Assembly (NCBI GenBank): GCA_022376925.1
Contig: JAIOJX010000032.1
Location: 99,068,794 to 99,132,793 of the forward strand
Origin: Tragulus kanchil
Lineage: Eukaryota; Chordata; Mammalia; Artiodactyla; Tragulidae
Direction of reading: 5' to 3'
Length of the DNA: 64,000 nt
In this document: piece by piece, positions 1 through 64,000 of the stretch
Numbering within the stretch: position 1 is the stretch's first letter
Layout of the letters: every line of letters starts with the position of its first letter
Position numbers and translations under genes: made by a program
Notes under the pieces: model-generated
Seen by the model: only the letters and a program-made list of their open reading frames with translations
Told to the model about the DNA's origin: nothing
The model's database searches: none

Positions 1-1212
1 TGATCTGAAGCAAGGAAGGTGAAGTCAGGAGGCGAAAACCAGCCACAATCCTCAAGATCAACAGCATATCACAAAGGGCTGAACAGCCAATGGGTGTCAT
101 CATGATTTCTTGAATGTGTCATCAGTTTCTTGCTGGGACCCTGAGAGAGACACCTGGTGATCTGTAAATGTTTCCCCGACTTAATACATTTTATCTGTGG
201 TGATCAGGCCTGATACATTCCCTTCGTTTAACACAGATTCTTTCTTTCTGAGTCATACTATTCAGACGAATACGAGAAAAATCCACTTCATCTTTGGGGG
301 TTAGAGTCATGAAGCCAAAATGACCCATCCTGTAATCTTGGATTAGACCATGGCCAAGTGCCCCATGGACAGAGAAGCCTGGTGGGCTACAGTCCATAGC
401 ATTGAAAAGAGTCAGATACAGCTGAGGTGACTTAGCATGCAGGCACACAAGTGCCTTAACTTTGTGATATTTCACTTTCCACCTGATATTGAATATTTTA
501 AAATGGAATTTGTATGAGCAATATAGACTGGTGCATAGTAGGCACTTTGCAAATATTAATTTATACTCTTTCCTCTTCACCTTTATGCCTTTGCTTTCCT
601 AGTTTTATATTTTTCTTTTTCTGCTTCATTTTGATTAATGTAATACCTTAAACTTCAGTGAAGTTGGTAGAGTAGCACAGCATGTAATTTGCAGTCAGAT
701 AATTTCCTCATCAGTGGGAGTTGCGCTGGTGCTAATTTGGGCTGTATCCTCTATTTCAGTCCTTTGTCTCATTTGTAAAGAGCATTCTGTATTGTTCCAA
801 CTTCTACAGTGTTCTGTATGAGATTCTACATCGTGACTGAAAGTGAGACTAGAAAATCCATTCCACCCTCAGACTCTTTGATTGCAGGGCACGTGTATAA
901 AATGCATCCTTATTAGGGAAAAATCTAAGTGCACCAATTTCTGAATACAAGGGTCTTTCTCTGTTCTTGGGAAGAGCCTTGATTTGTGCTCAGTGGAGTC
1001 ATCCTGGGAAGGATACTGGACGGAGGTTAAGTGGAATCCCCAATTCCATGACCTCCTGGGATGAAGCACTAGTTTATACTGAGCTGTACCCATTAGGCCT
1101 GCTCAGAGGTGTGGTTTAAAGAAGGAGATGGATGATCTGAAGCAAGAGAGGTGAAATCAGGAGGGCGAAAACCAGCCACAATCCTCAAGATCAACAGCAT
1201 ATCACAAAGGCT
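1..1212. repeat. Direct duplication D1 (left unit cut by window start)
   Basis: Bases 1-80 recur at 1133-1212 with a few indels, an offset of about 1132. Position 1 is therefore the tail of a left unit that begins outside the window, and about 80-1212 is the complete right unit. After base 80 and after base 1212 the sequences diverge, as expected for a unit end. Only the 80-bp tail can be compared here. Confidence 0.8.
358..452 (+). mobile_element. Bov-A2 SINE, 3' fragment
   Basis: The stretch reads as the conserved Bov-A 3' half: a gacagagaagcctggtggg segment, then gctacagtccat, then aaagagtcagataca, ending in a degraded acttagcatgcaggcaca tail. The tRNA-like head is missing, so this is a 5'-truncated or decayed copy. 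Bov-A sequences are specific to ruminants and support the assignment of the window. Confidence 0.75.
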
Positions 1213-1512
1213 ACAAGCTAGAACACCAAGTGCCAGAGGTCAAGCTGGAGGTTTTTGTAGACCAGATTATATAAGATAAAGGTCAAGAGCATAGAAATAT
1301 TTTCAAACATAGAGAAGACAGTAGCAGCATAAGGTGTGGATATAAGCAAGATCCACCTGGGAACAAATTGTCTGAACAGTCACTGTGCCTCTCTAAGGAA
1401 AGGCTTGGCATGGTCCCACCAAGTCTGAGACCAGGATAAAATGAGAAAATAGGTGTGAAAGCATTTCATAAACCACAAAGCACTACGCAAAAGTGAGGAT
1501 CCAGCAGATATT
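453..1512. other. Non-coding stretch, no recognisable gene
   Basis: A+T-rich sequence with stops in all frames. The longest open frames are under 80 codons, with no domain I recognise. The 1133-1212 tail belongs to D1. I see no clear repeat family, splice-site series or RNA gene. Confidence 0.6.
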
Positions 1513-1638
1513 TCACCATGCAGAGCCTGACTCTAAGAGGTCTATACCTGGTCAACTGGAGACAGACCAATCTCAAAGTCCACCTCCATGAAGAATACAT
1601 TCATTGAAAGAGAAACGATGCTCAAAGAAATTGAAACA

Positions 1639-1932
1639 AAAAAGGCAATTAGGGCTTCCCTGGTGGTCCAGTGGGTAGAGAGTCTGCCTTGCAGTGCAAG
1701 GGACACTCGTTCAGTCCGTGGCCCAGGAGGATCCCACGTGCCATGGATCGGCTGGACCGGTGTGTCCAATTACCAGCCGGCACTCTGGAGCGCATGCGCT
1801 CAGGGCCGGTGCTCTGCAATGGGAGAGACCATTGCACTGGGAGGCCCACATATGCCAAAGAATAAAAGATGAATGGAAATAAATACAAAAAAATTTAAAA
1901 ATAAAAGAAATAATCATTTGAAAAAGCCAATT
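1639..1932 (+). mobile_element. tRNA-derived SINE (Bov-tA/CHR-type) with target-site duplication, copy 1
   Basis: The element starts agggcttccctggtggtcc at 1651, has a decayed tRNA-like B-box region, the gagcgcatgcgctcagggcc block, and an A-rich tail. It is flanked by near-identical 12-mers, aaaaaggcaatt (1639-1650) and aaaaagccaatt (1921-1932), one mismatch apart, which is a target-site duplication made at L1-type insertion. Open frames across it are non-functional translations of the SINE. Confidence 0.85.
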
Positions 1933-2722
1933 AAAGGCAAATTGCAGGAAGGTTGTGTTTGCTGGGCTTTAGGATGAGAGGAACCTGGACCTCAAATACA
2001 AACCAACCTTGCTCCTTGTGGACTTCCTACTTCTTCCTTTGATTCAGTTTCATCAGGCTCCTATCACAGCCCAACCTTCTCTTTGAGGCTGAAACCTGGT
2101 CACGGCAACTCCCCATGGATGCTGCCATTTCCCAGCATCATCATCCTAGAGGAGTGGACCTTCTTCCCACATTTCCATTTCCAAAAAGCCCTGAGAGAAC
2201 TTTTGCAGGCTTGGGTACATGTCCATTTTATGACCAGGGCAAAGGGCACTGTGATTCGTCCTTCAACATATTTTGAATCAAAGAAGAAGTCATTGTTCAG
2301 TTATTCCTAGAAGGGAGGGTGTTACAAGGATATACAAACAGACAACCACTCCAAACATCTAATTAACATGGCATTCTAGAAACTACATTTTGGAGACTGA
2401 AATATCTGAACTTTTAGAAGAGGCCTCTCCTCTCATTGGAAGCACATCAGGACGAGGCTTGATAGTCAGTCTGTGCCCTCGCACAGGGCATGGTATATTC
2501 AGAAGGAGGATCTTGTGTCGCTTTAGAGAAGGGTCTACTGACAGAGATGTAGGAAGGCTGAAAAGCCAGAAAGGATGGTGAAGTATCCAAAGTGAGGTCA
2601 CCATGCAGAGCCTGACTCTAAGAGGTCTATACCTGGTCAACTGGAGACAGACCAATCTCAAAGTCCACCTCCATGAAGAATACATTCATTGAAAGAGAAA
2701 CGATGCTCAAAGAAATTGAAAC

Positions 2723-3015
2723 AAAAAGGCAATTAGGGCTTCCTGGTGGTCCAGTGGGTAGAGAGTCTGCCTTGCAGTGCAAGGGACACTCGTTCAGTCC
2801 GTGGCCCAGGAGGATCCCACGTGCCATGGATCGGCTGGACCGGTGTGTCCAATTACCAGCCGGCACTCTGGAGCGCATGCGCTCAGGGCCGGTGCTCTGC
2901 AATGGGAGAGACCATTGCACTGGGAGGCCCACATATGCCAAAGAATAAAAGATGAATGGAAATAAATACAAAAAAATTTAAAAATAAAAGAAATAATCAT
3001 TTGAAAAAGCCAATT
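2723..3015 (+). mobile_element. tRNA-derived SINE, copy 2 (inside D2 right unit)
   Basis: This is the same insertion as the one at 1639-1932, with the same target-site 12-mers at 2723-2734 and 3004-3015. It was therefore copied with its flanks, not inserted independently. It has one A and one C fewer near its 5' end than the left copy. Confidence 0.88.
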
Positions 3016-3681
3016 AAAGGCAAATTGCAGGAAGGTTGTGTTTGCTGGGCTTTAGGATGAGAGGAACCTGGACCTCAAATACAAACCAACCTTGCTCCTT
3101 GTGGACTTCCTACTTCTTCCTTTGATTCAGTTTCATCAGGCTCCTATCACAGCCCAACCTTCTCTTTGAGGCTGAAACCTGGTCACGGCAACTCCCCATG
3201 GATGCTGCCATTTCCCAGCATCATCATCCTAGAGGAGTGGACCTTCTTCCCACATTTCCATTTCCAAAAAGCCCTGAGAGAACTTTTGCAGGCTTGGGTA
3301 CATGTCCATTTTATGACCAGGGCAAAGGGCACTGTGATTCGTCCTTCAACATATTTTGAATCAAAGAAGAAGTCATTGTTCAGTTATTCCTAGAAGGGAG
3401 GGTGTTACAAGGATATACAAATAGACAACCACTCCAAACATCTAATTAACATGGCATTCTAGAAACTACATTTTGGAGACTGAAATATCTGAACTTTTTA
3501 GAAGAGGCCTCTCTCCTCTCATTGGAAGCACATCAGGACGAGGCTTGATAGTCAGTCTGTGCCCTCGCACAGGGCATGGTATATTCAGAAGGAGGATCTT
3601 GTGTCGCTTTAGAGAAGGGTCTACTGACAGAGATGTAGGAAGGCTGAAAAAAAGCCAGAAAGGATGGTGAAGTATCCAAAG

Positions 3682-4384
3682 GCTGTCACCATTACAAAAC
3701 CATTTCCGTTCTTGGCCTTAAAGGGGAGAGGTGAGACGAGGGGAGCCTGAACCCCCTGAGATGGGTAGCTTAGGGAAGGAAGGGTCAACAGAGAAGAGCT
3801 GTAGCCCTCAGCACAGGGACCCCGCTGTTCCTGGTAGACAAGTTGGGAAGAAACAGGGAATTTAACTACCTTGCTCTCCTTCCAGCTGTCCTTTCCCTGC
3901 TGTGTACCTCTTTGGCCAGTCCAAACTAGAAGTTAGAAGTCAAGGCACTCAACTTGACACAGTCCTTAACAGATCCCAGGGCAAGGCGGAAAAAGATGGT
4001 AGGTAGCCTGGAGGAACATGGGAAGTACACCTAGTAGAGGGACACATCTTTGGCCCAGGAGAAGTCTACTTTGTAAAATGGACCAGTTTTAAAAGAGCCA
4101 TGGGATTTTAGGGCCAAGAAGGGCTGTGAGGCTCATTCAGACCTAAAGTCCCAGACCTGGCTGTATCTAGCCTTCAGATTGTTCTGTGCACCTGACACAA
4201 CTTTAAAGCCAAAACAAGCCAACATGTTCAAACCTTCAAACCAGCATCCTTAAGGTAAGGACGTACCTTCCAGCTCCCCACAGTCATTGCCATTCCCAGC
4301 TGTCTACTGCCTGCCACTTTTCTCATGTTTCCTGAAATATTTGATTTGAGGACCTGTGATTAGAAGAATCATATTTCTTTATTT
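3682..4384. other. Non-coding stretch, no recognisable gene
   Basis: Single-copy sequence between D2 and a MIR relic. No open frame above about 60 codons begins with ATG here, and I recognise no repeat family. Confidence 0.55.
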
Positions 4385-5582: not shown

Positions 5583-7758
5583 TGTTGGACTCAGTTCTCT
5601 GAGTTCCCATCCTACTCTCTGAATTGAGCTGATGCTGAGTTGAATTGGAATGAGAGGAATGTGTCTACTTGACTTTTTTTCCTGAATTATCTTTAATTTG
5701 ATTCCATTCTTTTTTGGTGGCCTGTGGGTGGGGAAGCTTTATTTCACCCTCAATTCAAAATTCCTAGCCTTCCTCCTTTCCCTTCTATGTGAAGGTAGAC
5801 ATGAACCTGAATGTGTGGGGACAGAGCAGACTGGTCTGGGTGGCGAAGAGGGTGAGTACTGAATACAGATGAGGGGAGGATACGGGCTTCTAGGTTCTAC
5901 TTACACAGATATCCCCAAGCTGTGGTTAGTTAGGACACTGGTTTAGTTGTAATAAAAGAGGTCACATGGTGGTGACTTAACAGGAAGAGAGATGCGCTGC
6001 TCTCACGCATAGTACGGGAGCTGTTGGGCTGTCCAAACGGGAAGGGTGGCTGTGTTCCACAAGGTCGCCGGAGCCTAGGTCCTTCTGTCCTGTTGTTTTC
6101 CCATCTCTGATTGTCTGCAAAAATGTTCAAAACTGACTTTCCTCTACCACACACCAATGCCGGTTCTCACACAGGAGGAAGAAGCCTTATAGTACAAGCA
6201 AATTCAGCTTAGAAAGTGGTGCACAGCTACTTCCTTTCATGCCCCATCATTCGTAACTTACTCATGTGGCCATGCCTAGTCAGAGGGAAGGCAGGAAATA
6301 GAGTCCAAATAGAGTTTCTAGTTGGACAGCCATATGCCTAGTTAAATAAAGGAAGAGGTCCTTTATTCGTTAAAAGAAGTCAGAATGAATAAATGTTGGG
6401 AGCCTGTTAGCACATTCAAGATATATTTTCTAAACAGGATTGTCCTCCTTTTGTCCTCAGTGAACACAAAACTCATCATCTTTCAAATGCAAGTTTAAAT
6501 CTGCCTGCTTTTAAAGCTCTCCCAAGAAAACCATCTTCAAGTTTGTCTTCAGTGTTCTAAGAAAATCAAGCTAATATTATGCCTGCACCCAAGGAATACA
6601 TGAAATTTTGATTCAGATGCAAGCCCTACCATCACCACTTCCAATATTATCCCTAGTTCAACGAAGGTGTTGGACTCAGTTCTCTGAGTTCCCATCCTAC
6701 TCTCTGAATTGAGCTGATGCTGAGTTGAATTGGAATGAGAGGAATGTGTCTACTTGACTTTTTTTCCTGAATTATCTTTAATTTGATTCCATTCTTTTTT
6801 GGTGGCCTGTGGGTGGGGAAGCTTTATTTCACCCTCAATTCAAAATTCCTAGCCTTCCTCCTTTCCCTTCTATGTGAAGGTAGACATGAACCTGAATGTG
6901 TGGGGACAGAGCAGACTGGTCTGGGTGGCGAAGAGGGTGAGTACTGAATACAGATGAGGGGAGGATACGGGCTTCTAGGTTCTACTTACACAGATATCCC
7001 CAAGCTGTGGTTAGTTAGGACACTGGTTTAGTTGTAATAAAAGAGGTCACATGGTGGTGACTTAACAGGAAGAGAGATGCGCTGCTCTCACGCATAGTAC
7101 GGGAGCTGTTGGGCTGTCCAAACGGGAAGGGTGGCTGTGTTCCACAAGGTCGCCGGGAGCCTAGGTCCTTCTGTCCTGTTGTTTTCCCATCTCTGATTGT
7201 CTGCAAAAATGTTCAAAACTGACTTTCCTCTACCACACACCAATGCCGGTTCTCACACAGGAGGAAGAAGCCTTATAGTACAAGCAAATTCAGCTTAGAA
7301 AGTGGTGCACAGCTACTTCCTTTCATGCCCCATCATTCGTAACTTACTCATGTGGCCATGCCTAGTCAGAGGGAAGGCAGGAAATAGAGTCCAAATAGAG
7401 TTTCTAGTTGGACAGCCATATGCCTAGTTAAATAAAGGAAGAGGTCCTTTATTCGTTAAAAGAAGTCAGAATGAATAAATGTTGGGAGCCTGTTAGCACA
7501 TTCAAGATATATTTTCTAAACAGGATTGTCCTCCTTTTGTCCTCAGTGAACACAAAACTCATCATCTTTCAAATGCAAGTTTAAATCTGCCTGCTTTTAA
7601 AGCTCTCCCAAGAAAACCATCTTCAAGTTTGTCTTCAGTGTTCTAAGAAAATCAAGCTAATATTATGCCTGCACCCAAGGAATACATGAAATTTTGATTC
7701 AGATGCAAGCCCTACCACCACCACCACTTCCAATATTATCCCTAGTTCAACGAAGGTG
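5583..7758. repeat. Direct duplication D3, unit about 1085-1090 bp
   Basis: Bases 5583-6667 recur at 6668-7758. Differences are few: one extra G at about 7157, and catcaccact versus caccaccaccact near 7720 (a trinucleotide length change). The left unit ends caacgaaggtg and the right unit continues aggaataatac into unique sequence. The last 320 bp of the unit are shared again with D4, which gives three copies. Confidence 0.95.
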
Positions 7759-7809
7759 AGGAATAATACAACAAGTTAATGTTAAGTGGGTACTGCCTAC
7801 CAAGAATCA

Positions 7810-7985
7810 GTCAATCTGCTGTATGATAAGCATTATTTCATTCAATCATCACAATTGCCCTTTGAATTAGGTACTGTTGTCAGTGGCCAGATAAGGAAAT
7901 TAACACACTGTGAAGTTACTTTCCCCAAATCTCCAGCTACAAAATTCCAGACTCATAATTCAAGCACAAGACCTTCTGACTCCAG
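7810..7985 (-). mobile_element. MIR SINE relic (copy at 8901-9076)
   Basis: The sequence shows the reverse-orientation MIR order: tttcattcaatcatcacaat, a gtactgttgtc segment, ccagataaggaaatta, gaagttactttcccc, and a terminal caagaccttctgactcc. D4 duplicates it at 8901-9076. A 90-codon frame over it is not a gene. Confidence 0.65.
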
Positions 7986-8160
7986 GGTTTATTGTTTTTT
8001 TCATCACACTGCAACTTTCTGTGAAGAGCTTTGCAATAGGGGAGCTTCCAAGAACTGAAACAACTGGGTAACTTTGAATATGATACACGAGGCAAAACAT
8101 TCTAGCCAACTTGTCCATTGTGCTCATTTCACTTTTTAGGTGAATTGTATGTTGCCTCAT

Positions 8161-8378
8161 GTTGTTATTGTTTGTTGTTTAGTCTCAAGTCATATCCAAC
8201 TCTTTTGTGACTGTATGGACTGTAGCCCAAAAGGCTGCTCTGTCCATGGGATTTCCCAGGTAAGAATATTGGAGTGGGCTGCCGTTTCCTTCTCCAGGCA
8301 TCTTCCTGATCCAGGGATGAAACTCACATCTCCTGCTTGGCAGATGGATTCTTTACCACTGTGCCACCTGGGAAGCCC
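8161..8378 (-). mobile_element. Bov-A2 SINE, copy 1
   Basis: Read on the minus strand, the element begins with the tRNA-like head (complement of tgccacctgggaagccc at 8362-8378) and ends in the Bov-A tail, seen on the plus strand as gttgttattgtttgttgttt. The complement of the conserved block ctgtccatgggatttccc is intact. The 128-codon plus-strand frame across it is SINE sequence. Confidence 0.92.
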
Positions 8379-9251
8379 TTTTCTCTGCTACAGAAGACTT
8401 ATTTCTCCCCTCTGTTTTCTTCCTTTCTTGATTCTTCCAATGATTTTTCTCTTGAGGGAAAGGAGCAGATTGAAAACTGTGGTTATATATGTAACCATTA
8501 AAATAGATGCTCTGCCTATAAAATAAAGGAAGAGGTCCTTTATTCGTTAAAAGAAGTCAGAATGAATAAATGTTGGGAGCCTGTTAGCACATTCAAGATA
8601 TATTTTCTAAACAGGATTGTCCTCCTTTTGTCCTCAGTGAACACAAAACTCATCATCTTTCAAATGCAAGTTTAAATCTGCCTGCTTTTAAAGCTCTCCC
8701 AAGAAAACCATCTTCAAGTTTGTCTTCAGTGTTCTAAGAAAATCAAGCTAATATTATGCCTGCACCCAAGGAATACATGAAATTTTGATTCAGATGCAAG
8801 CCCTACCACCACCACCACTTCCAATATTATCCCTAGTTCAACGAAGGTGAGGAATAATACAACAAGTTAATGTTAAGTGGGTACTGCCTACCAAGAATCA
8901 GTCAATCTGCTGTATGATAAGCATTATTTCATTCAATCATCACAATTGCCCTTTGAATTAGGTACTGTTGTCAGTGGCCAGATAAGGAAATTAACACACT
9001 GTGAAGTTACTTTCCCCAAATCTCCAGCTACAAAATCCCAGACTCATAATTCAAGCACAAGACCTTCTGACTCCAGGGTTTATTGTTTTTTTCATCACAC
9101 TGCAACTTTCTGTGAAGAGCTTTGCAATAGGGGAGCTTCCAAGAACTGAAACAACTGGGTAACTTTGAATATGATACACGAGGCAAAACATTCTAGCCAA
9201 CTTGTCCATTGTGCTCATTTCACTTTTTAGGTGAATTGTATGTTGCCTCAT

Positions 9252-9469
9252 GTTGTTATTGTTTGTTGTTTAGTCTCAAGTCATATCCAACTCTTTTGTG
9301 ACTGTATGGACTGTAGCCCAAAAGGCTGCTCTGTCCATGGGATTTCCCAGGTAAGAATATTGGAGTGGGCTGCCGTTTCCTTCTCCAGGCATCTTCCTGA
9401 TCCAGGGATGAAACTCACATCTCCTGCTTGGCAGATGGATTCTTTACCACTGTGCCACCTGGGAAGCCC
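9252..9469 (-). mobile_element. Bov-A2 SINE, copy 2 (D4 right unit and D5 left unit)
   Basis: Same element and flanks as 8161-8378, shifted 1091 bp. The longest open frame in the window (173 codons, 9231-9752) runs through it and into flanking DNA, so it is not a gene. Confidence 0.92.
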
Positions 9470-9949
9470 TTTTCTCTGCTACAGAAGACTTATTTCTCCC
9501 CTCTGTTTTCTTCCTTTCTTGATTCTTCCAATGATTTTTCTCTTGAGGGAAAGGAGCAGATTGAAAACTGTGGTTATATATGTAACCATTAAAATAGATG
9601 CTCTGCCTATAAAAATGAGCTTGTGGCAAGACCTAATACATTATGGGCTAATATGCTGGCTCCCCATTCTGCAAGAGAACTGCAGTAATTCTGATCAGAG
9701 TAACATAATTCCCGCCTTTCCATTTGTTAGTTCCTTAGCCCAGCACAGCTGAGGACTTCATCTGCATTCAGTTCAACATTCTTGAGTACCATAGGGTGCT
9801 TGGTTATAAACTAGGAATTAGAGATGAGAAGTGGGGAAAACACAGGATTTCCCTCAGAGAAGTAAGAATCCACAGGGGGAGAACACAATAAGAAAAACAA
9901 ATAACTAGTGTCATGAGATTTACCCAAGGTGCTGTGGGTTTATAAGAGC

Positions 9950-10260
9950 TTCAGAATTGAAATGAGGAGGGGTCTGAGCTGAATTTTAGAACATAGAACA
10001 TAGTGAGAAGCAGTAAGAGAAAGAACATTCCAAGAGAAAGAGGGAACAGAGTATGCAAAGAAGGCATAAAACACATCATATGAAGCAGGTAGAGAATTTT
10101 GCAGTATAAATTGATCATGTCAATTTAAGGACCTCATTTGATTGATGCAAAGAGTTTTAAGTAGGAAAGTAAAGTGGCAACATCTACATTTTAGACACAT
10201 CCCTCCTTGCAGTATCAAGAGAACTTGGAGAAATCAAGGAGACCTGTTAGAAAGCATGCA
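9950..10260. repeat. Ancient interspersed-repeat relic, family unassigned (copies 11086-11396, part at 12434)
   Basis: The phrase order ctgagctgaattttagaaca, aagaacattccaagag, gggaacagagtatgcaaag, aagagttttaagtaggaaag, then cattttagacacatccc and gagacctgttagaaag follows an old, abundant mammalian repeat that also appears near 34000 and 52300. I cannot name the family safely. D5 and D6 copy it, the last part three times. Confidence 0.45.
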
Positions 10261-10440
10261 AAGTTGTGATGTCTCAAAAGTAAAGCTGGAGAATGGATAT
10301 AGAGTAGCAGCTGACATGTACTAAGGATTTACTAAGTGCTAGTATTATTCTATGCTCTTTGCTATAATAACTTATTTCATCCTCACACCTCTCCAAGGAG
10401 GTAGATACTATTATTTGTTCCTGTTTTACAGATGATGGGC

Positions 10441-10605
10441 TATGGACTGTAGCCCAAAAGGCTGCTCTGTCCATGGGATTTCCCAGGTAAGAATATTGGA
10501 GTGGGCTGCCGTTTCCTTCTCCAGGCATCTTCCTGATCCAGGGATGAAACTCACATCTCCTGCTTGGCAGATGGATTCTTTACCACTGTGCCACCTGGGA
10601 AGCCC
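10441..10605 (-). mobile_element. Bov-A2 SINE, truncated copy 3
   Basis: Only the portion from the tatggactgtagcccaaaag block to the head survives. It starts exactly at the D5 junction, so the truncation comes from the duplication boundary and not from 5' truncation at insertion. On the minus strand it is the 3' tail that is lost, which is unusual for a retroposed SINE. Confidence 0.9.
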
Positions 10606-11599
10606 TTTTCTCTGCTACAGAAGACTTATTTCTCCCCTCTGTTTTCTTCCTTTCTTGATTCTTCCAATGATTTTTCTCTTGAGGGAAAGGAGCAGATTGA
10701 AAACTGTGGTTATATATGTAACCATTAAAATAGATGCTCTGCCTATAAAAATGAGCTTGTGGCAAGACCTAATACATTATGGGCTAATATGCTGGCTCCC
10801 CATTCTGCAAGAGAACTGCAGTAATTCTGATCAGAGTAACATAATTCCCGCCTTTCCATTTGTTAGTTCCTTAGCCCAGCACAGCTGAGGACTTCATCTG
10901 CATTCAGTTCAACATTCTTGAGTACCATAGGGTGCTTGGTTATAAACTAGGAATTAGAGATGAGAAGTGGGGAAAACACAGGATTTCCCTCAGAGAAGTA
11001 AGAATCCACAGGGGGAGAACACAATAAGAAAAACAAATAACTAGTGTCATGAGATTTACCCAAGGTGCTGTGGGTTTATAAGAGCTTCAGAATTGAAATG
11101 AGGAGGGGTCTGAGCTGAATTTTAGAACATAGAACATAGTGAGAAGCAGTAAGAGAAAGAACATTCCAAGAGAAAGAGGGAACAGAGTATGCAAAGAAGG
11201 CATAAAACACATCATATGAAGCAGGTAGAGAATTTTGCAGTATAAATTGATCATGTCAATTTAAGGACCTCATTTGATTGATGCAAAGAGTTTTAAGTAG
11301 GAAAGTAAAGTGGCAACATCTACATTTTAGACACATCCCTCCTTGCAGTATCAAGAGAACTTGGAGAAATCAAGGAGACCTGTTAGAAAGCATGCAAAGT
11401 TGTGATGTCTCAAAAGTAAAGCTGGAGAATGGATATAGAGTAGCAGCTGACATGTACTAAGGATTTACTAAGTGCTAGTATTATTCTATGCTCTTTGCTA
11501 TAATAACTTATTTCATCCTCACACCTCTCCAAGGAGGTAGATACTATTATTGTTCCTGTTTTACAGATGATGAAACTTAGGTATTGAACCCAGCTAAGA

Positions 11600-12245
11600 A
11601 ACTAGTAACATATAATGGCAAATAGATGGGCAAACAATGAAAAGAGTGACAAACTTTATTTTCATTGGTTCCAAAATCACTGTGGATGGTGACTGCAGCC
11701 ATGAAATTAAAAGACTCTTGCTCCTTGGAAGAAAAGCTATGACAAACGTAGACAGCGTATTGAAAAGCAGAGACATCACTTTGCCAACAAAAGTCTGTTA
11801 TAGTCAAAGCCTATGGTTTTCCCAGTAGTCATGTATGAATGTGACAGCTGGACCGTAAAGAAGGCTGAGCGATGAAGAATTGATGTCTTTGAACTGTGGT
11901 GTTAGAGAAAGCTCTTGAGAGTCCCTTGGACTCTCAAGTCAATCCTAAAGGAAATCAACCCTGAATATTCATTGGAAGGACTGGTGCTGAAGCTGAAGCT
12001 CCAGTACTCTGGCCACCTGATGCAAAGAGACAACTCATTGGGAAAGAACCTGATGCTGGGAAAAATAGAAGACAGAAGGAGATGGAGGGGTGACAGAGGA
12101 TGAGATGGTTGGATGGTATCACTCATGTCAATGGACATGAGTTTGAGCTAGCTCTAGGAGATGGTGGAGAACAGGGAAGCCTAGCATGCTGTAGGCCATG
12201 GGGTCACAAAGAGTCAAACATGACTGAGTGACTGAACTGAACTGA
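11600..12245 (+). mobile_element. BovB (RTE-type) LINE, 3' end with RT C-terminus relic, copy 1
   Basis: Two frame-shifted pieces translate to BovB-type protein. One, around 11637-11828, reads FIFIGSKITVDGDCSHEIKR and KAMTNVDSVLKSRDITLPTK. The other, around 11915-12103, reads [20 protein letters not shown] and LMLGKIEDRRR. The 3' end has the cacaaagagtcaaacatgac and actgaactgaactg tail shared with Bov-A SINEs. It is 5'-truncated and inactive: no catalytic palm residues are present and the frame is broken. Confidence 0.92.
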
Positions 12246-12714
12246 AAAAAATGATAGAACCAGGATTTGAACTGGCCTTTCCCCAGAACCTACTCTCTTA
12301 AGGACTGAAGGGGATGTTTTCATTAGATTTTCTTATTGAAATATTAGGCTCCCTAAGTTTATCTTTGAAGGTCGTTAGAACAAAGAGGCTAAACATCATA
12401 GGGCTAGGAATTAGTAAAGTGGCCAAAAAATTTTCTACATTTTAGACACATCCCTCCTTGCAGTATCAAGAGAACTTGGAGAAATCAAGGAGACCTGTTA
12501 GAAAGCATGCAAAGTTGTGATGTCTCAAAAGTAAAGCTGGAGAATGGATATAGAGTAGCAGCTGACATGTACTAAGGATTTACTAAGTGCTAGTATTATT
12601 CTATGCTCTTTGCTATAATAACTTATTTCATCCTCACACCTCTCCAAGGAGGTAGATACTATTATTGTTCCTGTTTTACAGATGATGAAACTTAGGTATT
12701 GAACCCAGCTAAGA

Positions 12715-13357: not shown

Positions 13358-13540
13358 AAAATGATAGAACCAGGATTTGAACTGGCCTTTCCCCAGAACC
13401 TACTCTCTTAAGGACTGAAGGGGATGTTTTCATTAGATTTTCTTATTGAAATATTAGGCTCCCTAAGTTTATCTTTGAAGGTCGTTAGAAGGGCTATATG
13501 GCAGTGAATTAAGAAGACTAAGAAGTTAACTAGACTGATA

Positions 13541-16576: not shown

Positions 16577-16610
<34 letters not shown>

Positions 16611-17741: not shown

Positions 17742-17775
<34 letters not shown>

Positions 17776-51203: not shown

Positions 51204-51625
51204 CCAACCCATTTAGACAACACGTTCACTCATCACTGGAAGATATGCTTCCTCACTCCTACCTCATTTTCAAGCAGAATCTTTCTTCACTCCTGTTTGA
51301 TAACTGTGGGACATAGCTGTTTCAGCTTCCATATGCAAAATGGACAGAGGTCCATAAACCTCTCTTGCTCTTCTTGTTCCACTTGCTTATGGACAGAGGA
51401 GTTATGCTTCAGGAGATGGGGACTGATTGGGCTTGGGACTGGTCTAGGCTTTCAGCCTGAGTCTCTGCTCTCTTTGTTCTCTAAATGTTCTTTTCTCTTT
51501 CCATTCAGTCAAGAAAGAAAAAGGAAGGAAGGGAGGGAGGGCATGACGAAGGAAAGGAAAGAAAGGAGTGCTGTAGTCAAATGAAAGCTTGGAACACATA
51601 GATAACAGAGCTCTTCACTGTAGAA

Positions 51626-52274: not shown

Positions 52275-52640
52275 CTTCAGGCCTAAAATGATTGGCACCA
52301 AGTCTCTGACTTTGAGAGGCTCATAATCAATGAAGGGGACAGACATATAAGGAATGCATGATGTGCATTGTTTGGGATGTTGTAGTACAGGAAAGTGTCG
52401 GGTACAGAGAAAATAGCAGGAGTACATAAAAAGGGGTCATAGGAGGTAATGTTTTAGCTAAGTCTCGAGAAATGAGTAGAGGATATTAAATGGTAATGAG
52501 GGGAAACAAAAAAATGGAAAATCGTGGGTCATAGAACAGCCTGGAATATCTGGAAAGCTGCAAGTTTGACTAGAGTGTAGTGCTCAGGATACAGATGGAG
52601 AAGCAGACTGGTGACAACTTGAGAAGCATGGTGGAAACTT
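52275..52640. repeat. Ancient interspersed-repeat relic (part copied at 53731-53881)
   Basis: Phrases gagaggctcataatcaatga, aatgttttagctaagtctcg and agaaatgagtagaggatatt, then gcctggaatatctggaaagc, follow the same old family as at 9950 and 33990. D20 begins inside it. Confidence 0.4.
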
Positions 52641-54956
52641 CATGTTTTGTGTTTGAAACCACGATTAAGTCCTTTCTCCATGTATCATAACAGAAATTTT
52701 TCTACCTTTGGTCCACACGAAGAAATCAGTATTGCCCATTGATTTTGTCATGGCTAGGTAATAATCTACCCTTCTCCAATATATACTCTGTTGAATACCC
52801 ATCTTGTGAGATGAACCACACCCATGCACCCACACATGCATGCAAACACATATGTATACAATTTATCTGAGAAGAAAATAAATATGGAGAAAGGCCCATT
52901 GGCACATTCAGAATGGAAAGAAATGTTTTACCTTGGAGCTCAATTTTTTTTTTTTTTTTTTTTGAGGAACATATTTTAGTACTGTATAACACACACTTTA
53001 GGAAAATGTTTCTGACACTTCAAAATAGTGACAGTGGTGCCCTGTGACAACCTTCTGAAACCGCCATATGCCAAGAAACCCTGGGCTGGGAGCCGTTACT
53101 GCCATCTGAGGTTAGAGAAGGGAAAAGATCTGGTTGATGTCCTTGGCGACAACTGAGCAAGAACAAGAGTTCAGGGTTTAGGTGTCCTTTTTCTGGTCCA
53201 GTTCTCATTTATTGCGTTCATAAATGGACCCCCTAAAGTCCACAGGCATTTACTAGTGACTCCACGTGTCTACCATTGTGCCCTGTGCTAAGAACGATGT
53301 GGAAATTCTCACTAATGGGAGAGATGATACTACACATAGCCACGTGGGTCTTCAGGGGCTGTGGTAGGGATGCCTACCCTGTTTATGGGGTTTGGGCAAA
53401 GAGTTGGTTTGATCTGAATTAATTTTCTAAGAAGTTCAAATGGGCTCTTTTCTCTGTGGGGGAAGAGACCATAGAGGGGGAACAGAAGCTTGGGACCAGT
53501 GGGGAGGGGAGCACAGAGTCTGATTCTGGTTCCATGTGACAAGTGCAGTGGAGAGAAGTTGTGGATAGTTGGATTTGAGAGGAAGTAGAGACTGACGGCT
53601 CTGAGGGTAGACATGGGGTGGCCGGTTTTGAGACAAGGAGACTGATGTGCTTCTGCTCCCTTGGAACTGGAATTATAATTTAAAATCAGCATCTTTATGG
53701 TATGCTTATTTCTGTTTAGCTAAGCTCAATTTGGTAATGAGGGGAAACAAAAAAATGGAAAATCGTGGGTCATAGAACAGCCTGGAATATCTGGAAAGCT
53801 GCAAGTTTGACTAGAGTGTAGTGCTCAGGATACAGATGGAGAAGCAGACTGGTGACAACTTGAGAAGCATGGTGGAAACTTCATGTTTTGTGTTTGAAAC
53901 CACGATTAAGTCCTTTCTCCATGTATCATAACAGAAATTTTTCTACCTTTGGTCCACACGAAGAAATCAGTATTGCCCATTGATTTTGTCATGGCTAGGT
54001 AATAATCTACCCTTCTCCAATATATACTCTGTTGAATACCCATCTTGTGAGATGAACCACACCCATGCACCCACACATGCATGCAAACACATATGTATAC
54101 AATTTATCTGAGAAGAAAATAAATATGGAAAGAGGCCCATTGGCACATTCAGAATGGAAAGAAATGTTTTACCTTGGAGCTCAATTTTTTTTTTTTTTTT
54201 TTGAGGAACATATTTTAGTACTGTATAACACACACTTTAGGAAAATGTTTCTGACACTTCAAAATAGTGACAGTGGTGCCCTGTGACAACCTTCTGAAAC
54301 CGCCATATGCCAAGAAACCCTGGGCTGGGAGCCGTTACTGCCATCTGAGGTTAGAGAAGGGAAAAGATCTGGTTGATGTCCTTGGCGACAACTGAGCAAG
54401 AACAAGAGTTCAGGGTTTAGGTGTCCTTTTTCTGGTCCAGTTCTCATTTATTGCGTTCATAAATGGACCCCCTAAAGTCCACAGGCATTTACTAGTGACT
54501 CCACGTGTCTACCATTGTGCCCTGTGCTAAGAACGATGTGGAAATTCTCACTAATGGGAGAGATGATACTACACATAGCCACGTGGGTCTTCAGGGGCTG
54601 TGGTAGGGATGCCTACCCTGTTTATGGGGTTTGGGCAAAGAGTTGGTTTGATCTGAATTAATTTTCTAAGAAGTTCAAATGGGCTCTTTTCTCTGTGGGG
54701 GAAGAGACCATAGAGGGGGAACAGAAGCTTGGGACCAGTGGGGAGGGGAGCACAGAGTCTGATTCTGGTTCCATGTGACAAGTGCAGCGGAGAGAAGTTG
54801 TGGATAGTTGGATTTGAGAGGAAGTAGAGACTGACGGCTCTGAGGGTAGACATGGGGTGGCCGGTTTTGAGACAAGGAGACTGATGTGCTTCTGCTCCCT
54901 TGGAACTGGAATTATAATTTAAAATCAGCATCTTTATGGTATGCTTATTTCTGTTT
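52455..54956. repeat. Direct duplication D20, unit about 1241 bp (longest)
   Basis: Bases 52490-53717 recur at 53731-54956. The right start tagctaagctcaatttggt is a shortened form of tagctaagtctcgagaaatg... at 52455. T-run length differs (20 T at 52944-52963, 18 T at 54185-54202), as do ggagaaagg/ggaaagagg and cagtgga/cagcgga. Confidence 0.94.
52944..52963. repeat. Poly-T tract (copy at 54185-54202)
   Basis: 20 consecutive T in the left D20 unit and 18 in the right. It might be the tail of a minus-strand retroposon, but no SINE body adjoins it that I can recognise. Confidence 0.85.
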
Positions 54957-56881
54957 CCTATAAAAGGAACGCTCTACTAGCAAAAAACAATGAAAGCATT
55001 GCAAAATGCATCCAGTTCATTTCCCCTGGTTTCTTTCACAAGAAGCAACCACTGTTACCAATCTCTTGTGTATTTTTCCAGGCAGTCTAAGAGTACACAT
55101 GTGTGTATGCGTGAGCAAATTATACAGTAGTCCAGGTTGTATATCCTGTATGGTAGCTGACTCTTTCCACTAAATAATATATCTTAAAGATTAGTCCATA
55201 CCAGTACTTATAGAAAGAATTCTGTATATTTTAGCAATACAACAATATATTGCAGTATACTGCCATATCATAATATTTAATTAATATTGAGTTAATTCCC
55301 TACTGAAAGACATGGATTTTTTTCCATTTTTCAATTACTAATGATAATGTAATGAATAATGTTATAATAATATCTTTGAACATATTATACACATGTAGAA
55401 GTGGATCTATAGAATAAACCCCTAGGAGGAGAATCTATGGCTCTAAAAGAATGTGTATATTTAAGCATTGGTTGAGGGAACCATTTTGTCCATCGAGAGT
55501 TGTGCTAGTTTATAGTCAGTAACAATGCTTGATGATAACTCCCAAGGTGAAAGCTTTTATGATCATAGTGAAGTTTATGGTGACTCACAAGTGTGTGGCT
55601 TTATATTTGCCAGAAGTGCTTCTTTACCTGTTATTTATTTAGTTACTAAACCCACTCTTGGAAGTAGATCTTTTGTATTCTAGTTTACTAGTGACTCCAC
55701 GTGTCTACCATTGTGCCCTGTGCTAAGAACGATGTGGAAATTCTCACTAATGGGAGAGATGATACTACACATAGCCACGTGGGTCTTCAGGGGCTGTGGT
55801 AGGGATGCCTACCCTGTTTATGGGGTTTGGGCAAAGAGTTGGTTTGATCTGAATTAATTTTCTAAGAAGTTCAAATGGGCTCTTTTCTCTGTGGGGGAAG
55901 AGACCATAGAGGGGGAACAGAAGCTTGGGACCAGTGGGGAGGGGAGCACAGAGTCTGATTCTGGTTCCATGTGACAAGTGCAGCGGAGAGAAGTTGTGGA
56001 TAGTTGGATTTGAGAGGAAGTAGAGACTGACGGCTCTGAGGGTAGACACGGGGTGGCCGGTTTTGAGACAAGGAGACTGATGTGCTTCTGCTCCCTTGGA
56101 ACTGGAATTATAATTTAAAATCAGCATCTTTATGGTATGCTTATTTCTGTTTCCTATAAAAGGAACGCTCTACTAGCAAAAAACAATGAAAGCATTGCAA
56201 AATGCATCCAGTTCATTTCCCCTGGTTTCTTTCACAAGAAGCAACCACTGTTACCAATCTCTTGTGTATTTTTCCAGGCAGTCTAAGAGTACACATGTGT
56301 GTATGCGTGAGCAAATTATACAGTAGTCCAGGTTGTATATCCTGTATGGTAGCTGATTCTTTCCACTAAATAATATATCTTAAAGATTAGTCCATACCAG
56401 TACTTATAGAAAGAATTCTGTATATTTTAGCAATACAACAATATATTGCAGTATACTGCCATATCATAATATTTAATTAATATTGAGTTAATTCCCTACT
56501 GAAAGACATGGATTTTTTTCCATTTTTCAATTACTAATGATAATGTAATGAATAATGTTATAATAATATCTTTGAACATATTATACACATGTAGAAGTGG
56601 ATCTATAGAATAAACCCCTAGGAGGAGAATCTATGGCTCTAAAAGAATGTGTATATTTAAGCATTGGTTGAGGGAACCATTTGTCCATCGAGAGTTGTGC
56701 TAGTTTATAGTCAGTAACAATGCTTGATGATAACTCCCAAGGTGAAAGCTTTTATGATCATAGTGAAGTTTATGGTGACTCACAAGTGTGTGGCTTTATA
56801 TTTGCCAGAAGTGCTTCTTTACCTGTTATTTATTTAGTTACTAAACCCACTCTTGGAAGTAGATCTTTTGTATTCTAGTTT
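54487..56881. repeat. Direct duplication D21, unit 1196 bp, overlapping D20
   Basis: Bases 54487-55682 recur at 55683-56881. The left unit begins within the D20 right unit, so the ctagtgactccacgtg block occurs at 53253, 54492 and 55688. The cagcgga variant is shared by copies 2 and 3, as a chain of overlaps predicts. Differences include gacatgggg/gacacgggg and gctgactc/gctgattc. Confidence 0.95.
55010..55640. mobile_element. L1 LINE fragment (copy at 56206-56836)
   Basis: Phrase order: tttcacaagaagcaaccact, gttaccaatctcttgtgtat, attagtccataccagtactt, aatgataatgtaatgaataa, acacatgtagaagtggatct, aataaacccctaggaggaga and tatttaagcattggttgagg. It follows a diverged L1M-class non-coding segment (aggataaattcctagaagtgg...). 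D21 duplicates it. Confidence 0.6.
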
Positions 56882-57954: not shown

Positions 57955-58205
57955 CAAGGCTTCACTCAAGCTTTGTCCCCTCTGACCTCTGGGAGGCCAT
58001 CCCTGCCTGCCCTTCACCCCATTTTGTGAATGGTGGCCCCATTCACATGCTTTGCTAGACCTGTTTGCATATCCCATGCTGCCGTGTATGTTCATATAGA
58101 TATGTACATTTCCATAAGCTCCACTGAACTGGGGAGCTCCCAAGAGCAGGGATACTGACTGTTCCATTTCTTAAGTCACCATGCCTGCATACTAAGGAAG
58201 TGCCA
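57955..58205 (+). mobile_element. L2 LINE 3' region (part copied at 59244-59369)
   Basis: Sense L2 phrases: tctgacctctgggaggccat, ccctgcctgcccttcacccc, gctttgctagacctgtttgc, cactgaactggggagctccc, aagagcagggatactgactg and tcaccatgcctgcatactaa. D22 copies the last third. Confidence 0.65.
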
Positions 58206-60406
58206 GTTCTGAATGCCTCTTTGTTTCAGGCATTTTGTGAATATCTTGAACTTTAATTTTCCCAACAAAAAGAGACAGTCCCATCTGTATTTCTCAGCAG
58301 GGGAAATTGAGACTTAGGGAGCAAAGTCACATGTACAGGGATACACAGTGAATGGAAGGACCCCTGGGTCCATTCCAACCGAGGTCTATCTTCCTCCAAG
58401 TCCTGGGCTCTTGCCAACCTACCATCACTCCCCACATCCGCTCCATGTGATTAGCGTGAAGCCTGAAATCAGTTATGGATTGTTTTTGTTTTTGTGTATG
58501 TAACCTTTTACTGGAACATAGCCACATCCACTTGTTTACACATTGTCTATGGCTGCTTTCGTTTATTTTAGAAACAGCTTTATTGAGATATAATTCACAC
58601 AGCACTCAATTCAGCCATTTAAACTGTAAACTCAGTTTTTAGTAATTATATCCCATTCTTTCAGGACAGGATAGAAGGTAGGCAACTGTCTCCCAATGGG
58701 TGTCTTGAGACTGAAGCCATGTCCCCATGCATGTCTCTGGTGCTGAGATGGGACAGAGGGTGTAGGGAAGGAAAGACTGGGCTCAATACAATCGGTTTCA
58801 TTTCAGCCTAGAGACTTTAAGGACAACAGCAGATGAGTTTCCAGAAGTACATGGACAGCTGAATTCAGAGACTCCAAGGCCTCCCTCTTAGAAAGGAAGC
58901 ACACTCACACAAGCCACTTACTTAGGTGCCTGCCTTTTTAATGTGCAGCTGGAAAGGGACTGTGGAGAGAGGAATGGAGGATGTACATAGGCACAGAGAA
59001 GGGAAGAGGAAGTGTTAGTAACACATGCCATGGGAGTTCAAGGAAGAGGTTACTGCACAAGTTGCCAAATCCTTTACAGCTTTTTCTCATTGAACATTTT
59101 TTCTAACTGTATGTGGCAGGACTGTTCTCCTCAGTTTACAGACGAGGACCCTGAAAGAACCCTTCTCTTTCAAAAATTTATGGACACCAAGCCCATAACC
59201 CTGAAGTACTGTCAGTCATACACAGTCCTGCCTTGGGGACCCCTGCCGTGTATGTTCAAATAGATATGTACATTTCCATAAGCCCCCCTGAACTGGGGAG
59301 CTCCCAAGAGCAGGGATACTGACTGTTCCATTTCTTAAGTCACCATGCCTGCATACTAAGGAAGTGCCAGTTCTGAATGCCTCTTTGTTTCAGGCATTTT
59401 GTGAATATCTTGAACTTTAATTTTCCCAACAAAAAGAGACAGTCCCATCTGTATTTCTCAGCAGGGGAAATTGAGACTTAGGGAGCAAAGTCACATGTAC
59501 AGGGATACACAGTGAATGGAAGGACCCCTGGGTCCATTCCAACCGAGGTCTATCTTCCTCCAAGTCCTGGGCTCTTGCCAACCTACCATCACTCCCCACA
59601 TCCGCTCCATGTGATTAGCGTGAAGCCTGAAATCAGTTATGGATTGTTTTTGTTTTTGTGTATGTAACCTTTTACTGGAACATAGCCACATCCACTTGTT
59701 TACACATTGTCTATGGCTGCTTTCGTTTATTTTAGAAACAGCTTTATTGAGATATAATTCACACAGCACTCAATTCAGTCATTTAAACTGTAAACTCAGT
59801 TTTTAGTAATTATATCCCATTCTTTCAGGACAGGATAGAAGGTAGGCAACTGTCTCCCAATGGGTGTCTTGAGACTGAAGCCATGTCCCCATGCATGTCT
59901 CTGGTGCTGAGATGGGACAGAGGGTGTAGGGAAGGAAAGACTGGGCTCAATACAATCGGTTTCATTTCAGCCTAGAGACTTTAAGGACAACAGCAGATGA
60001 GTTTCCAGAAGTACATGGACAGCTGAATTCAGAGACTCCAAGGCCTCCCTCTTAGAAAGGAAGCACACTCACACAAGCCACTTACTTAGGTGCCTGCCTT
60101 TTTAATGTGCAGCTGGAAAGGGACTGTGGAGAGAGGAATGGAGGATGTACATAGGCACAGAGAAGGGAAGAGGAAGTGTTAGTAACACATGCCATGGGAG
60201 TTCAAGGAAGAGGTTACTGCACAAGTTGCCAAATCCTTTACAGCTTTTTCTCATTGAACATTTTTTCTAACTGTATGTGGCAGGACTGTTCTCCTCAGTT
60301 TACAGACGAGGACCCTGAATGAACCCTTCTCTTTCAAAAATTTATGGACACCAAGCCCATAACCCTGAAGTACTGTCAGTCATACACAGTCCTGCCTTGG
60401 GGGCAC
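58078..60406. repeat. Direct duplication D22, unit about 1165 bp
   Basis: Bases 58078-59243 recur at 59244-60406. Differences: ttcatatag/ttcaaatag, agctccac/agcccccc, cagccattt/cagtcattt and ctgaaagaacc/ctgaatgaacc. The junction ggggacccctgccgtg is clean. Confidence 0.94.
58565..58650. mobile_element. L1 LINE 3'UTR fragment (copy at 59729-59814)
   Basis: Phrases agaaacagctttattgagat, ataattcacacagcactcaa and ttcagccatttaaactgtaa, then cagtttttagtaattata, follow a common L1 3'UTR segment (tttattgagatataattcac..., tcagtggtttttagtatatt). Confidence 0.65.
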
Positions 60407-60639
60407 CCTCCTCCATCCAAGGTTGCCCTAGTCTCAGATTTGGCCATGGACCTGGGGACCAACACATATTTATTCAGTGGGGAGGAAGGGGCACAAATGA
60501 GAAGAAAGGAAGTAAGACTGATGCATTTAGAGAAAGTGTTCAGATCAGCCTGATTGGTGGGGACCATGCCTTCTAGAGGTGACTGGGAAGCACAGAGGTT
60601 ACAGATGTGCACGTGTGGGCTTCATGTGGAGTCACACTG

Positions 60640-60755
60640 CCTGGTTCATATTCTGGTTCTCCCACTTATTAGCTGTATAAACTCAGGTGAGTTCCTTGAC
60701 GATTTTATCTGTGCCTCAGCTCCTCATCTGTAAAATGGAGATCGTTATTTTTTCT
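60640..60755 (+). mobile_element. MIR SINE relic (copy at 61745-61860)
   Basis: Sense MIR core: ggttcatattctggttctcc, cacttattagctgtataaac, tcaggtgagttccttgacga, ttttatctgtgcctcagctc and ctcatctgtaaaatggagat. One of the best preserved MIRs here. D23 duplicates it. Confidence 0.82.
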
Positions 60756-60756
60756 T

Positions 60757-60822
60757 ATGTTTTTTTATCATCATATAGTTGATTTACAATGTTGTATTTG
60801 TTTCAAAGGTGATTCAGATAAT
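60757..60822 (-). mobile_element. L1 3' end, outer part of a split element (copy at 61862-61927)
   Basis: The sequence atagttgatttacaatgttg, then atttgtttcaaaggtgattc, is the L1 3' terminus in reverse. It stops where Bov-A2 begins and resumes on its other side at 62143 (gatattcagattcttttcc). Confidence 0.78.
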
Positions 60823-61037
60823 AGAGGGGTGTGTGTGTGTGCTCAGTTGTGTCCAACTCTGTGGACTACAATCTGTCAGGCTCTTCCGTCCATGGGATTT
60901 TCCTGGCAAGAATACTGGAGTGGGTTGCCATTTCCTTCTCCAGGGGATCTTCCCAAGCCGGGGATCAAACTTGAGTCACTTGCATTTCTCGTGTCTCCTG
61001 CTTGGCCAGCAGATCTTTACTGGTGAGCTACCAGGGA
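60823..61037 (-). mobile_element. Bov-A2 SINE nested in L1, copy 1
   Basis: On the plus strand: ggggtgtgtgtgtgtgctca, gttgtgtccaactctgtgga, gggattttcctggcaagaat, actggagtgggttgccattt and ctccaggggatcttcccaag, then gtgagctaccaggga, the complement of the head. The duplication junction at 61034 cuts off its right flank, so the L1 continuation is missing here. Confidence 0.92.
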
Positions 61038-61927
61038 AGGAAAGACTGGGCTCAATACAATCGGTTTCATTTCAGCCTAGAGACTTTAAGGACAACAGCA
61101 GATGAGTTTCCAGAAGTACATGGACAGCTGAATTCAGAGACTCCAAGGCCTCCCTCTTAGAAAGGAAGCACACTCACACAAGCCACTTACTTAGGTGCCT
61201 GCCTTTTTAATGTGCAGCTGGAAAGGGACTGTGGAGAGAGGAATGGAGGATGTACGTAGGCACAGAGAAGGGAAGAGGAAGTGTTAGTAACACATGCCAT
61301 GGGAGTTCAAGGAAGAGGTTACTGCACAAGTTGCCAAATCCTTTACAGCTTTTTCTCATTGAACATTTTTTCTAACTGTATGTGGCAGGACTGTTCTCCT
61401 CAGTTTACAGACGAGGACCCTGAAAGAACCCTTCTCTTTCAAAAATTTATGGACACCAAGCCCATAACCCTGAAGTACTGTCAGTCATACACAGTCCTGC
61501 CTTGGGGGCACCCTCCTCCATCCAAGGTTGCCCTAGTCTCAGATTTGGCCATGGACCTGGGGACCAACACATATTTATTCAGTGGGGAGGAAGGGGCACA
61601 AATGAGAAGAAAGGAAGTAAGACTGATGCATTTAGAGAAAGTGTTCAGATCAGCCTGATTGGTGGGGACCATGCCTTCTAGAGGTGACTGGGAAGCACAG
61701 AGGTTACAGATGTGCACGTGTGGGCTTCATGTGGAGTCACACTGCCTGGTTCATATTCTGGTTCTCCCACTTATTAGCTGTATAAACTCAGGTGAGTTCC
61801 TTGACGATTTTATCTGTGCCTCAGCTCCTCATCTGTAAAATGGAGATCGTTATTTTTTCTTATGTTTTTTTATCATCATATAGTTGATTTACAATGTTGC
61901 ATTTGTTTCAAAGGTGATTCAGATAAT

Positions 61928-62142
61928 AGAGGGGTGTGTGTGTGTGCTCAGTTGTGTCCAACTCTGTGGACTACAATCTGTCAGGCTCTTCTGTCCATGG
62001 GATTTTCCTGGCAAGAATACTGGAGTGGGTTGCCATTTCCTTCTCCAGGGGATCTTCCCAAGCCGGGGATCAAACTTGAGTCACTTGCATTTCTCGTGTC
62101 TCCTGCTTGGCCAGCAGATCTTTACTGGTGAGCTACCAGGGA
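61928..62142 (-). mobile_element. Bov-A2 SINE nested in L1, copy 2 (both flanks present)
   Basis: The complete arrangement: L1 3' end, Bov-A2, then a (GATA)3 run and the rest of the L1 terminus. One substitution (tcttctgtcc) distinguishes it from copy 1. Confidence 0.93.
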
Positions 62143-62290
62143 AACATAGATAGATAGATATTCAGATTCTTTTCCATTTTGGGTTATATAAGATATTAAA
62201 TATCATTCCCTGTATTATATATTATGTCCTTGTTGTTTATCTGTTTTATAAATAGTGGTGTGTATCTGTTCATTATCATGGGGTTATTTT
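62143..62290 (-). mobile_element. L1 3' end, inner part of the split element (copy at 63224-63371)
   Basis: Sequence tattcagattcttttccatt, ttgggttatataagatatta, tcattccctgtattatatat and tccttgttgtttatctgttt, then gtggtgtgtatctgtt, the continuation of the reversed L1 terminus after the SINE. A short (AGAT)n run adjoins it. Confidence 0.78.
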
Positions 62291-63069
62291 GAGAACTAAA
62301 TGAACTACTTTAAAAAAAAAATCCTAAGAATATTGCCTAGTACCTAGTGAGCATTTGAGACAGGTTGATGGCTATTATTATTACACACTGAAAAATAGTG
62401 GTTGAAGCTTGAATATGAAAGTATTTGGATGCCAGACTGTGGCACCTTGATTTTATAGCTCTTGGTTTTTGAACCAGATGAAATTTGGCTTTGGGGAGGT
62501 TTACCTATGTAGCATGAATTCAGGTAGTAGGAAAATTGGAGCTAAGAGACCCACAGAGGTGCTGCAGCCAAGGTCTTTATGGTGATTTCATTGTCTGGGA
62601 GAGAGGCGGGCTGGCCCGCTGACTGCACTTGGGCTTTGTTGATGCCTGTCAGACTGTCTGCTCTGAGGCAGGGCTTTGGCTGTTTTGGTCCTGATTCTGC
62701 TGTCAGGGAGCTCTTTTGCCTGTTACCTTATAGGAGATGGGGATCATTCTCTTTCACCTGCCTGGGGAAGTGACTGCCATTATATATAGCCTTGAGAATG
62801 CAGACTTGTGGTCTCTGTGGAGCTGCCAGCTCAGGAATTCGCAGCAGGCTAGAAGCATTGGCCCTACCAGCAGCTCAACTGAGCTGGACTCTATTTTAAG
62901 GGTGTCAGAGGGTTCACCTAAAATTCTCCTCCTGGGAGACAGCCTAACAGTGTGCCATTATGCTGTTCCTAGGTAATAGTAGGCTCCTAGCTCACCTGCA
63001 GTGAGAGGGTGTCTCTCAAGATCAACTCCTGCACCCTTGCCTTCCTCTCGCATCCTCCCATGACAATAA
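62291..63069. other. Non-coding stretch (copy from 63372 to the window end)
   Basis: 62300-62400 has MIR-like tail phrases (agaatattgcctagtaccta, gtgagcatttgagacagg). 62570-62980 is unassigned, GC-richer sequence with 64-79-codon frames and no recognisable domain. Confidence 0.45.
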
Positions 63070-63222
63070 CTGTCCATGGGATTTTCCTGGCAAGAATACT
63101 GGAGTGGGTTGCCATTTCCTTCTCCAGGGGATCTTCCCAAGCCGGGGATCAAACTTGAGTCACTTGCATTTCTCGTGTCTCCTGCTTGGCCAGCAGATCT
63201 TTACTGGTGAGCTACCAGGGAA
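63070..63222 (-). mobile_element. Bov-A2 SINE, truncated copy 3
   Basis: It starts at ctgtccatgggattttcctg, exactly at the D24 junction, and keeps the head side and its right flank. As at 10441, on the minus strand it is the 3' tail of the SINE that is missing, because a duplication boundary and not reverse transcription made the truncation. Confidence 0.92.
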
Positions 63223-64000
63223 ACATAGATAGATAGATATTCAGATTCTTTTCCATTTTGGGTTATATAAGATATTAAATATCATTCCCTGTATTATATA
63301 TTATGTCCTTGTTGTTTATCTGTTTTATAAATAGTGGTGTGTATCTGTTCATTATCATGGGGTTATTTTGAGAACTAAATGAACTACTTTAAAAAAAAAA
63401 TCCTAAGAATATTGCCTAGTACCTAGTGAGCATTTGAGACAGGTTGATGGCTATTATTATTACACACTGAAAAATAGTGGTTGAAGCTTAAATATGAAAG
63501 TATTTGGATGCCAGACTGTGGCACCTTGATTTTATAGCTCTTGGTTTTTGAACCAGATGAAATTTGGCTTTGGGGAGGTTTACCTATGTAGCATGAATTC
63601 AGGTAGTAGGAAAATTGGAGCTAAGAGACCCACAGAGGTGCTGCAGCCAAGGTCTTTATGGTGATTTCATTGTCTGGGAGAGAGGCGGGCTGGCCCGCTG
63701 ACTGCACTTGGGCTTTGTTGATGCCTGTCAGACCGTCTGCTCTGAGGCAGGGCTTTGGCTGTTTTGGTCCTGATTCTGCTGTCAGGGAGCTCTTTTGCCT
63801 GTTACCTTATAGGAGATGGGGATCATTCTCTTTCACCTGCCTGGGGAAGTGACTGCCATTATATATAGCCTTGAGAATGCAGACTTGTGGTCTCTGTGTG
63901 GAGCTGCCAGCTCAGGAATTCGCAGCAGGCTAGAAGCATTGGCCCCTACCAGCAGCTCAACTGAGCTGGACTCTATTTTAAGGGTGTCAGAGGGTTCACC

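Follow-up and report, generated by a model that had tools for sequence, protein, structure and literature searches.

The tandem duplications of about 1.1 kb in the 64,000-base stretch of DNA analysed here (the window) are very probably an artefact of genome assembly, judging from the sequence itself. We attribute them, with nearly as much confidence, to neighbouring consensus blocks that share about 1.1 kb and appear to have been written end to end with the shared ends left unmerged. The chain of blocks, their constant overlap and their noisy ends can be read directly off the window, and from these we infer the cause. The artefact reading is supported by the errors at the block ends, which are a prediction of unmerged consensus blocks but not of biological duplication.

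Near-identical tandem pairs of constant length

Self-comparison of the window reveals 22 direct, adjacent, near-identical pairs (98.18-99.91% identity), with offsets of 1052-1241 bases (mean 1124.6, SD 44.3, CV 3.9%). Adjacent direct copies of such constant length are what false duplication is expected to produce. The gap between the copies is -20 to +40 bases in 21 of the 22 pairs, whereas the last pair, unit 22, which is cut by the window end, has an apparent gap of 151. In 14 of the 22 cases, the sequence shared at the junction amounts to 0-20 bases (a gap of 0 being counted as none). Among the inverted matches in the window longer than 200 bases, with E up to 1e-10, no near-identical pair was seen, the best such match reaching 90% identity over 310 bases. 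The unit copies occupy 45518 of the 64000 bases (71.1% of the window), and the longest single-copy stretches are 1-1512, 3693-5582, 29870-34907 and 37118-40249. The window contains no N bases, and Tandem Repeats Finder (periods up to 500) reports only five short rows in it.

The preliminary description had counted 23 units of about 1.04-1.24 kb and a 24th of 577 bp, all of them direct, adjacent and nearly identical, and covering the window from edge to edge. The size class, the orientation, the adjacency and the near identity all hold. The number of units is 22 by self-comparison, the 577-bp unit belongs to a separate, diverged array rather than to the series, and the edge-to-edge cover is correct roughly but not strictly, given the single-copy stretches that are left.

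The features are as follows; no strand is assigned to any of them, and percentages denote identity between copies.

Unit 1, 1513..3692: copies 1513-2604 and 2598-3692; 98.9%
Unit 2, 5583..7758: copies 5583-6669 and 6668-7758; 99.5%
Unit 3, 7421..9614: copies 7421-8523 and 8513-9614; 99.7%; three-copy stretch with unit 2
Unit 4, 9305..11572: copies 9305-10437 and 10441-11572; 99.9%; three-copy stretch with unit 3
Unit 5, 11298..13490: copies 11298-12380 and 12405-13490; 98.7%; three-copy stretch with unit 4
Unit 6, 13182..15510: copies 13182-14343 and 14351-15510; 98.5%; three-copy stretch with unit 5
Unit 7, 16045..18358: copies 16045-17192 and 17219-18358; 99.0%
Unit 8, 18889..21166: copies 18889-20023 and 20018-21166; 98.2%
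Unit 9, 20921..23204: copies 20921-22061 and 22062-23204; 99.7%; three-copy stretch with unit 8
Unit 10, 24069..26348: copies 24069-25208 and 25209-26348; 99.7%
Unit 11, 27612..29869: copies 27612-28740 and 28732-29869; 98.9%
Unit 12, 34908..37117: copies 34908-36010 and 36001-37117; 98.3%
Unit 13, 40250..42406: copies 40250-41314 and 41349-42406; 98.6%
Unit 14, 41986..44248: copies 41986-43122 and 43118-44248; 98.8%; three-copy stretch with unit 13
Unit 15, 43834..45951: copies 43834-44905 and 44886-45951; 98.3%; three-copy stretch with unit 14
Unit 16, 47015..49136: copies 47015-48054 and 48095-49136; 99.7%
Unit 17, 49335..51555: copies 49335-50430 and 50458-51555; 99.7%
Unit 18, 52491..54956: copies 52491-53717 and 53732-54956; 99.6%
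Unit 19, 54488..56881: copies 54488-55686 and 55684-56881; 99.75%; three-copy stretch with unit 18
Unit 20, 58079..60408: copies 58079-59242 and 59243-60408; 99.4%
Unit 21, 59928..62143: copies 59928-61038 and 61033-62143; 99.6%; three-copy stretch with unit 20
Unit 22, 61991..64000: copies 61991-62918 (probably to 63069) and 63070-64000 (cut by the window end); 99.5%; three-copy stretch with unit 21
Diverged tandem array, 37926..39440: offsets 590 and 577; 93.6% and 85.9%; outside the artefact

A chain of overlapping blocks

With a block defined as the sequence between successive junctions, the 22 junctions delimit 21 complete blocks, of which 18 are 1775-3557 bases long and the three longer ones measure 4067, 5326 and 7269. 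Each block has about 1.1 kb in common with the next, and the blocks are laid end to end. For 10 of the 21 blocks, the shared sequence at one end extends into that at the other, so that 152-480 bases are present three times. The overlap is 1125 bases and the three-copy stretch 341, and the advance of these 10 blocks with overlapping neighbours is 783 (SD 99). Without the repeats, the window shrinks to about 39258 bases, which corresponds to a 1.63-fold inflation, computed as length only. The start-to-start advances have no significant period (0.458 observed, against a null median of 0.430 and a 90% value of 0.520).

The unmatched bases at the junctions mostly have no source elsewhere in the window. 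Most of the 34 unmatched junction bases at 41315-41348 duplicate the beginning of the next block (31 of them match 40274-40304), making this a small repeat within a noisy block start. A (TG)12.5 microsatellite is of equal length in both copies of unit 7 (16586-16610 and 17751-17775), as expected if one locus was written twice.

Such a chain very probably arose when a long-read assembler called the consensus separately for successive layout blocks that overlap by about 1.1 kb, and the step meant to align and merge the shared ends failed. The blocks would then have been written end to end, and the shared ends would appear twice, or three times where three blocks overlap.

Another assembly step, namely gap filling, or scaffolding in which contigs whose overlaps went unrecognised were joined without N, is an unlikely source of the pattern. 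It, too, would leave near-identical copies next to each other in direct orientation with ends of poor quality, the window is free of N as joining of this kind implies, and the relevant sections of Ko et al. 2022 (PMC9516828) describe false duplications beside gaps and from incorrect gap filling. However, the roughly 39 kb of unique sequence would have to hold more than 20 gaps with nearly equal overlaps, and the running together of the overlaps in 10 of the 21 blocks would have to be explained as well. The sizes and the chaining of the blocks favour unmerged assembler blocks over gap filling.

The homotype false duplication, as presented in the same sections of Ko et al. 2022 (PMC9516828), resembles the unmerged blocks in that one sequence is likewise found twice in a scaffold, an overlap or error not having been collapsed. 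The cases in those sections are mostly gap-separated and scattered, whereas the window has 22 gapless ones in 64 kb, with a fixed overlap. Our literature search found no published description of the unmerged-overlap fault, for wtdbg2 or otherwise.

Differences gather at the block ends

Across the 22 units, the copies differ by 118 events (30 transitions, 21 transversions and 67 indels), 66 of which fall in the first or last 100 columns. When only the 21 complete units are counted, the outermost 100 columns at either unit end, which make up 4200 of 23650 columns (18%), hold 65 of 114 events; in this untrimmed count, 4 of the 21 units lack any difference within 100 columns of either end. Because the extent of alignment extension could itself make the ends noisy, outer columns were dropped and tighter alignments were tried. 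The end events then numbered 43 of 92 (10 columns dropped) and 30 of 79 (20 dropped) in the 21 complete units, and, with the tighter alignments, 52 of 101, 29 of 78 and 23 of 72 (0, 10 and 20 dropped, respectively). The end excess persists in all the trimmed and tighter counts, with p of 2e-4 or less.

The 10 three-copy stretches allow the odd copy to be identified column by column: among 127 columns, it is the left block's end in 45, the right block's start in 75 and the interior block in 7, and 114 of the 120 odd columns of the left and right blocks are within 55 bases of the respective block end. Neighbouring columns are not independent and were therefore merged into events, which yields 10 for the left, 3 for the interior and 15 for the right (n=28; p 0.006), or 8, 3 and 9 with the outer 10 columns dropped (p 0.06). 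This test is weaker at the event level and weaker again after trimming. The differences gather at the ends of the joined blocks, as expected of false duplication by unmerged overlap, and are not spread evenly over all copies, as would be expected of biological duplication (the interior copy is odd in 7 of 127 columns and 3 of 28 events). This polarisation of errors towards block ends lends support to the earlier suggestion of a misassembly signature with a fixed overlap length in assembly or gap filling, which had been offered alongside a very unusual process as the other option.

The ends and interiors also differ in kind. The outermost 60 columns at each end of the units contain 48 indels and 13 substitutions (3 transitions and 10 transversions), and the unit interiors have 19 indels and 38 substitutions (27 transitions and 11 transversions). 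At the left block's end, 22 of 25 indels are bases absent from the left block. Given the end indels and the interior excess of transitions, the unit ends look like poor consensus and the interiors like a pair of good consensus calls from a single locus; some of the interior differences look allelic.

Real tandem duplications in the genome of the animal, whether by slippage, unequal exchange or re-replication, are very unlikely to account for the pattern. Direct and adjacent copies, an interior transition excess of 27:11, which is like real variation, and the short sequences of 0-20 bases shared at 14 of the 22 junctions are compatible with such an origin, but the unit length is constant at unrelated places, the errors are polarised to the unit ends, which are rich in indels, and the one biological-looking array in the window, with offsets of 577-590, has none of these features. 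It is hardly credible that some real process makes tandem copies of one fixed length, about 1.1 kb, at numerous unrelated sites and that its synthesis is error-prone where each copied tract begins and ends.

Duplication of signal chunks by a nanopore basecaller is highly improbable too. A basecaller chunk of 10000 samples taken at 4 kHz, with 450 bases passing per second, corresponds to about 1.1 kb, which matches the unit length. Duplicated chunks, however, would give neither the 152-480 bases that successive units have in three copies nor blocks that are noisy at both ends, and the consensus should vote against such a read-level fault.

A candidate program

If the duplications are an artefact, then the unmerged blocks are probably units of the wtdbg type, with wtdbg or wtdbg2 (Redbean) the most likely program. 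In wtdbg2, the consensus units presumably run from node to node, sharing one node, and the overlap between neighbouring nodes is no more than 256. The layout units would share one 1024-bp graph node. The observed overlap, three-copy stretch and advance of 1125, 341 and 783 compare with 1024+s, 256+s and 768, where s is about 85-100, an agreement that amounts to one check and not three because the advance is the overlap minus the three-copy length. Five of the 10 short advances fall below the floor of 768, the lowest being 637. No 256-base steps in the advances were seen in the period test, and for this reason we can only infer the link to wtdbg, although drift of bins between reads could blur such steps. 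To our knowledge, deer assemblies made with wtdbg tools show no size inflation like the 1.63-fold of the window, which would require the fault to be a local one.

In the passages of the two papers that deal with these parameters, wtdbg2 is described as cutting reads into 1024-bp segments (PMC7730629) and using a bin size of 256 bp (PMC11831799), values consistent with both the overlap and the shortest of the advances measured here; the corresponding passages of PMC12037172 and PMC13201080 add nothing on node size. For simulated reads of mediocre quality, PMC7730629 reports Redbean assemblies significantly larger than the references; with real reads the sizes did not differ significantly, and with low-quality reads they were smaller. 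According to the respective papers, wtdbg v1.2.8 was used for the sika deer assembly (PMC10372904) and WTDBG2 v2.5-1 for the mule deer assembly (PMC9650288). These two papers document only that wtdbg tools have been used on ruminants and do not tie the program to the window.

Implications and coding content

The 1.1-kb duplications very probably carry no biology and are of little biological interest. Left in a public assembly, such stretches would inflate its size (here, about 39.3 kb is written as 64.0 kb), give rise to spurious tandem duplications and structural variants, and impair read mapping; duplication counts at the locus could be misleading. The signature, which consists of a fixed overlap, three-copy stretches and differences at block ends, is detectable from sequence alone and could be used for the screening of assemblies.

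Of 78 stop-to-stop ORFs with a length of 90 aa or more, ten were compared with Pfam and had no match up to E 0.1, and no Rfam family reached the gathering score in the window. For the 10 ORFs checked, this agrees with the initial characterisation of the window as non-coding.

The diverged array and other repeats

The diverged array, which serves as an in-window control for the pattern of differences, has copies starting at about 37926, 38516 and 39093, with pairwise identities of 93.6% and 85.9%. Between the first and second copies there are 12 transitions, 4 transversions and 4 gaps, and the final two tenths of the copy are free of such differences. The array (37926-39440) has the appearance of a genuine, older tandem duplication in which the duplicated sequence includes an interspersed repeat. 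It is related to a repeat at 30266-30595 and, in inverted orientation, to one at 51644-51963. Adjoining it, at 39346-39596, are three successive short tandem rows with periods of 21, 23 and 25, the last comprising 2.7 copies at 95%. A short SINE-like motif, taken here to belong to a ruminant SINE, gave no match in viral contigs or in the texts of papers. It has 9 occurrences in the window, which reduce to 4 sites once the duplicated copies are removed.
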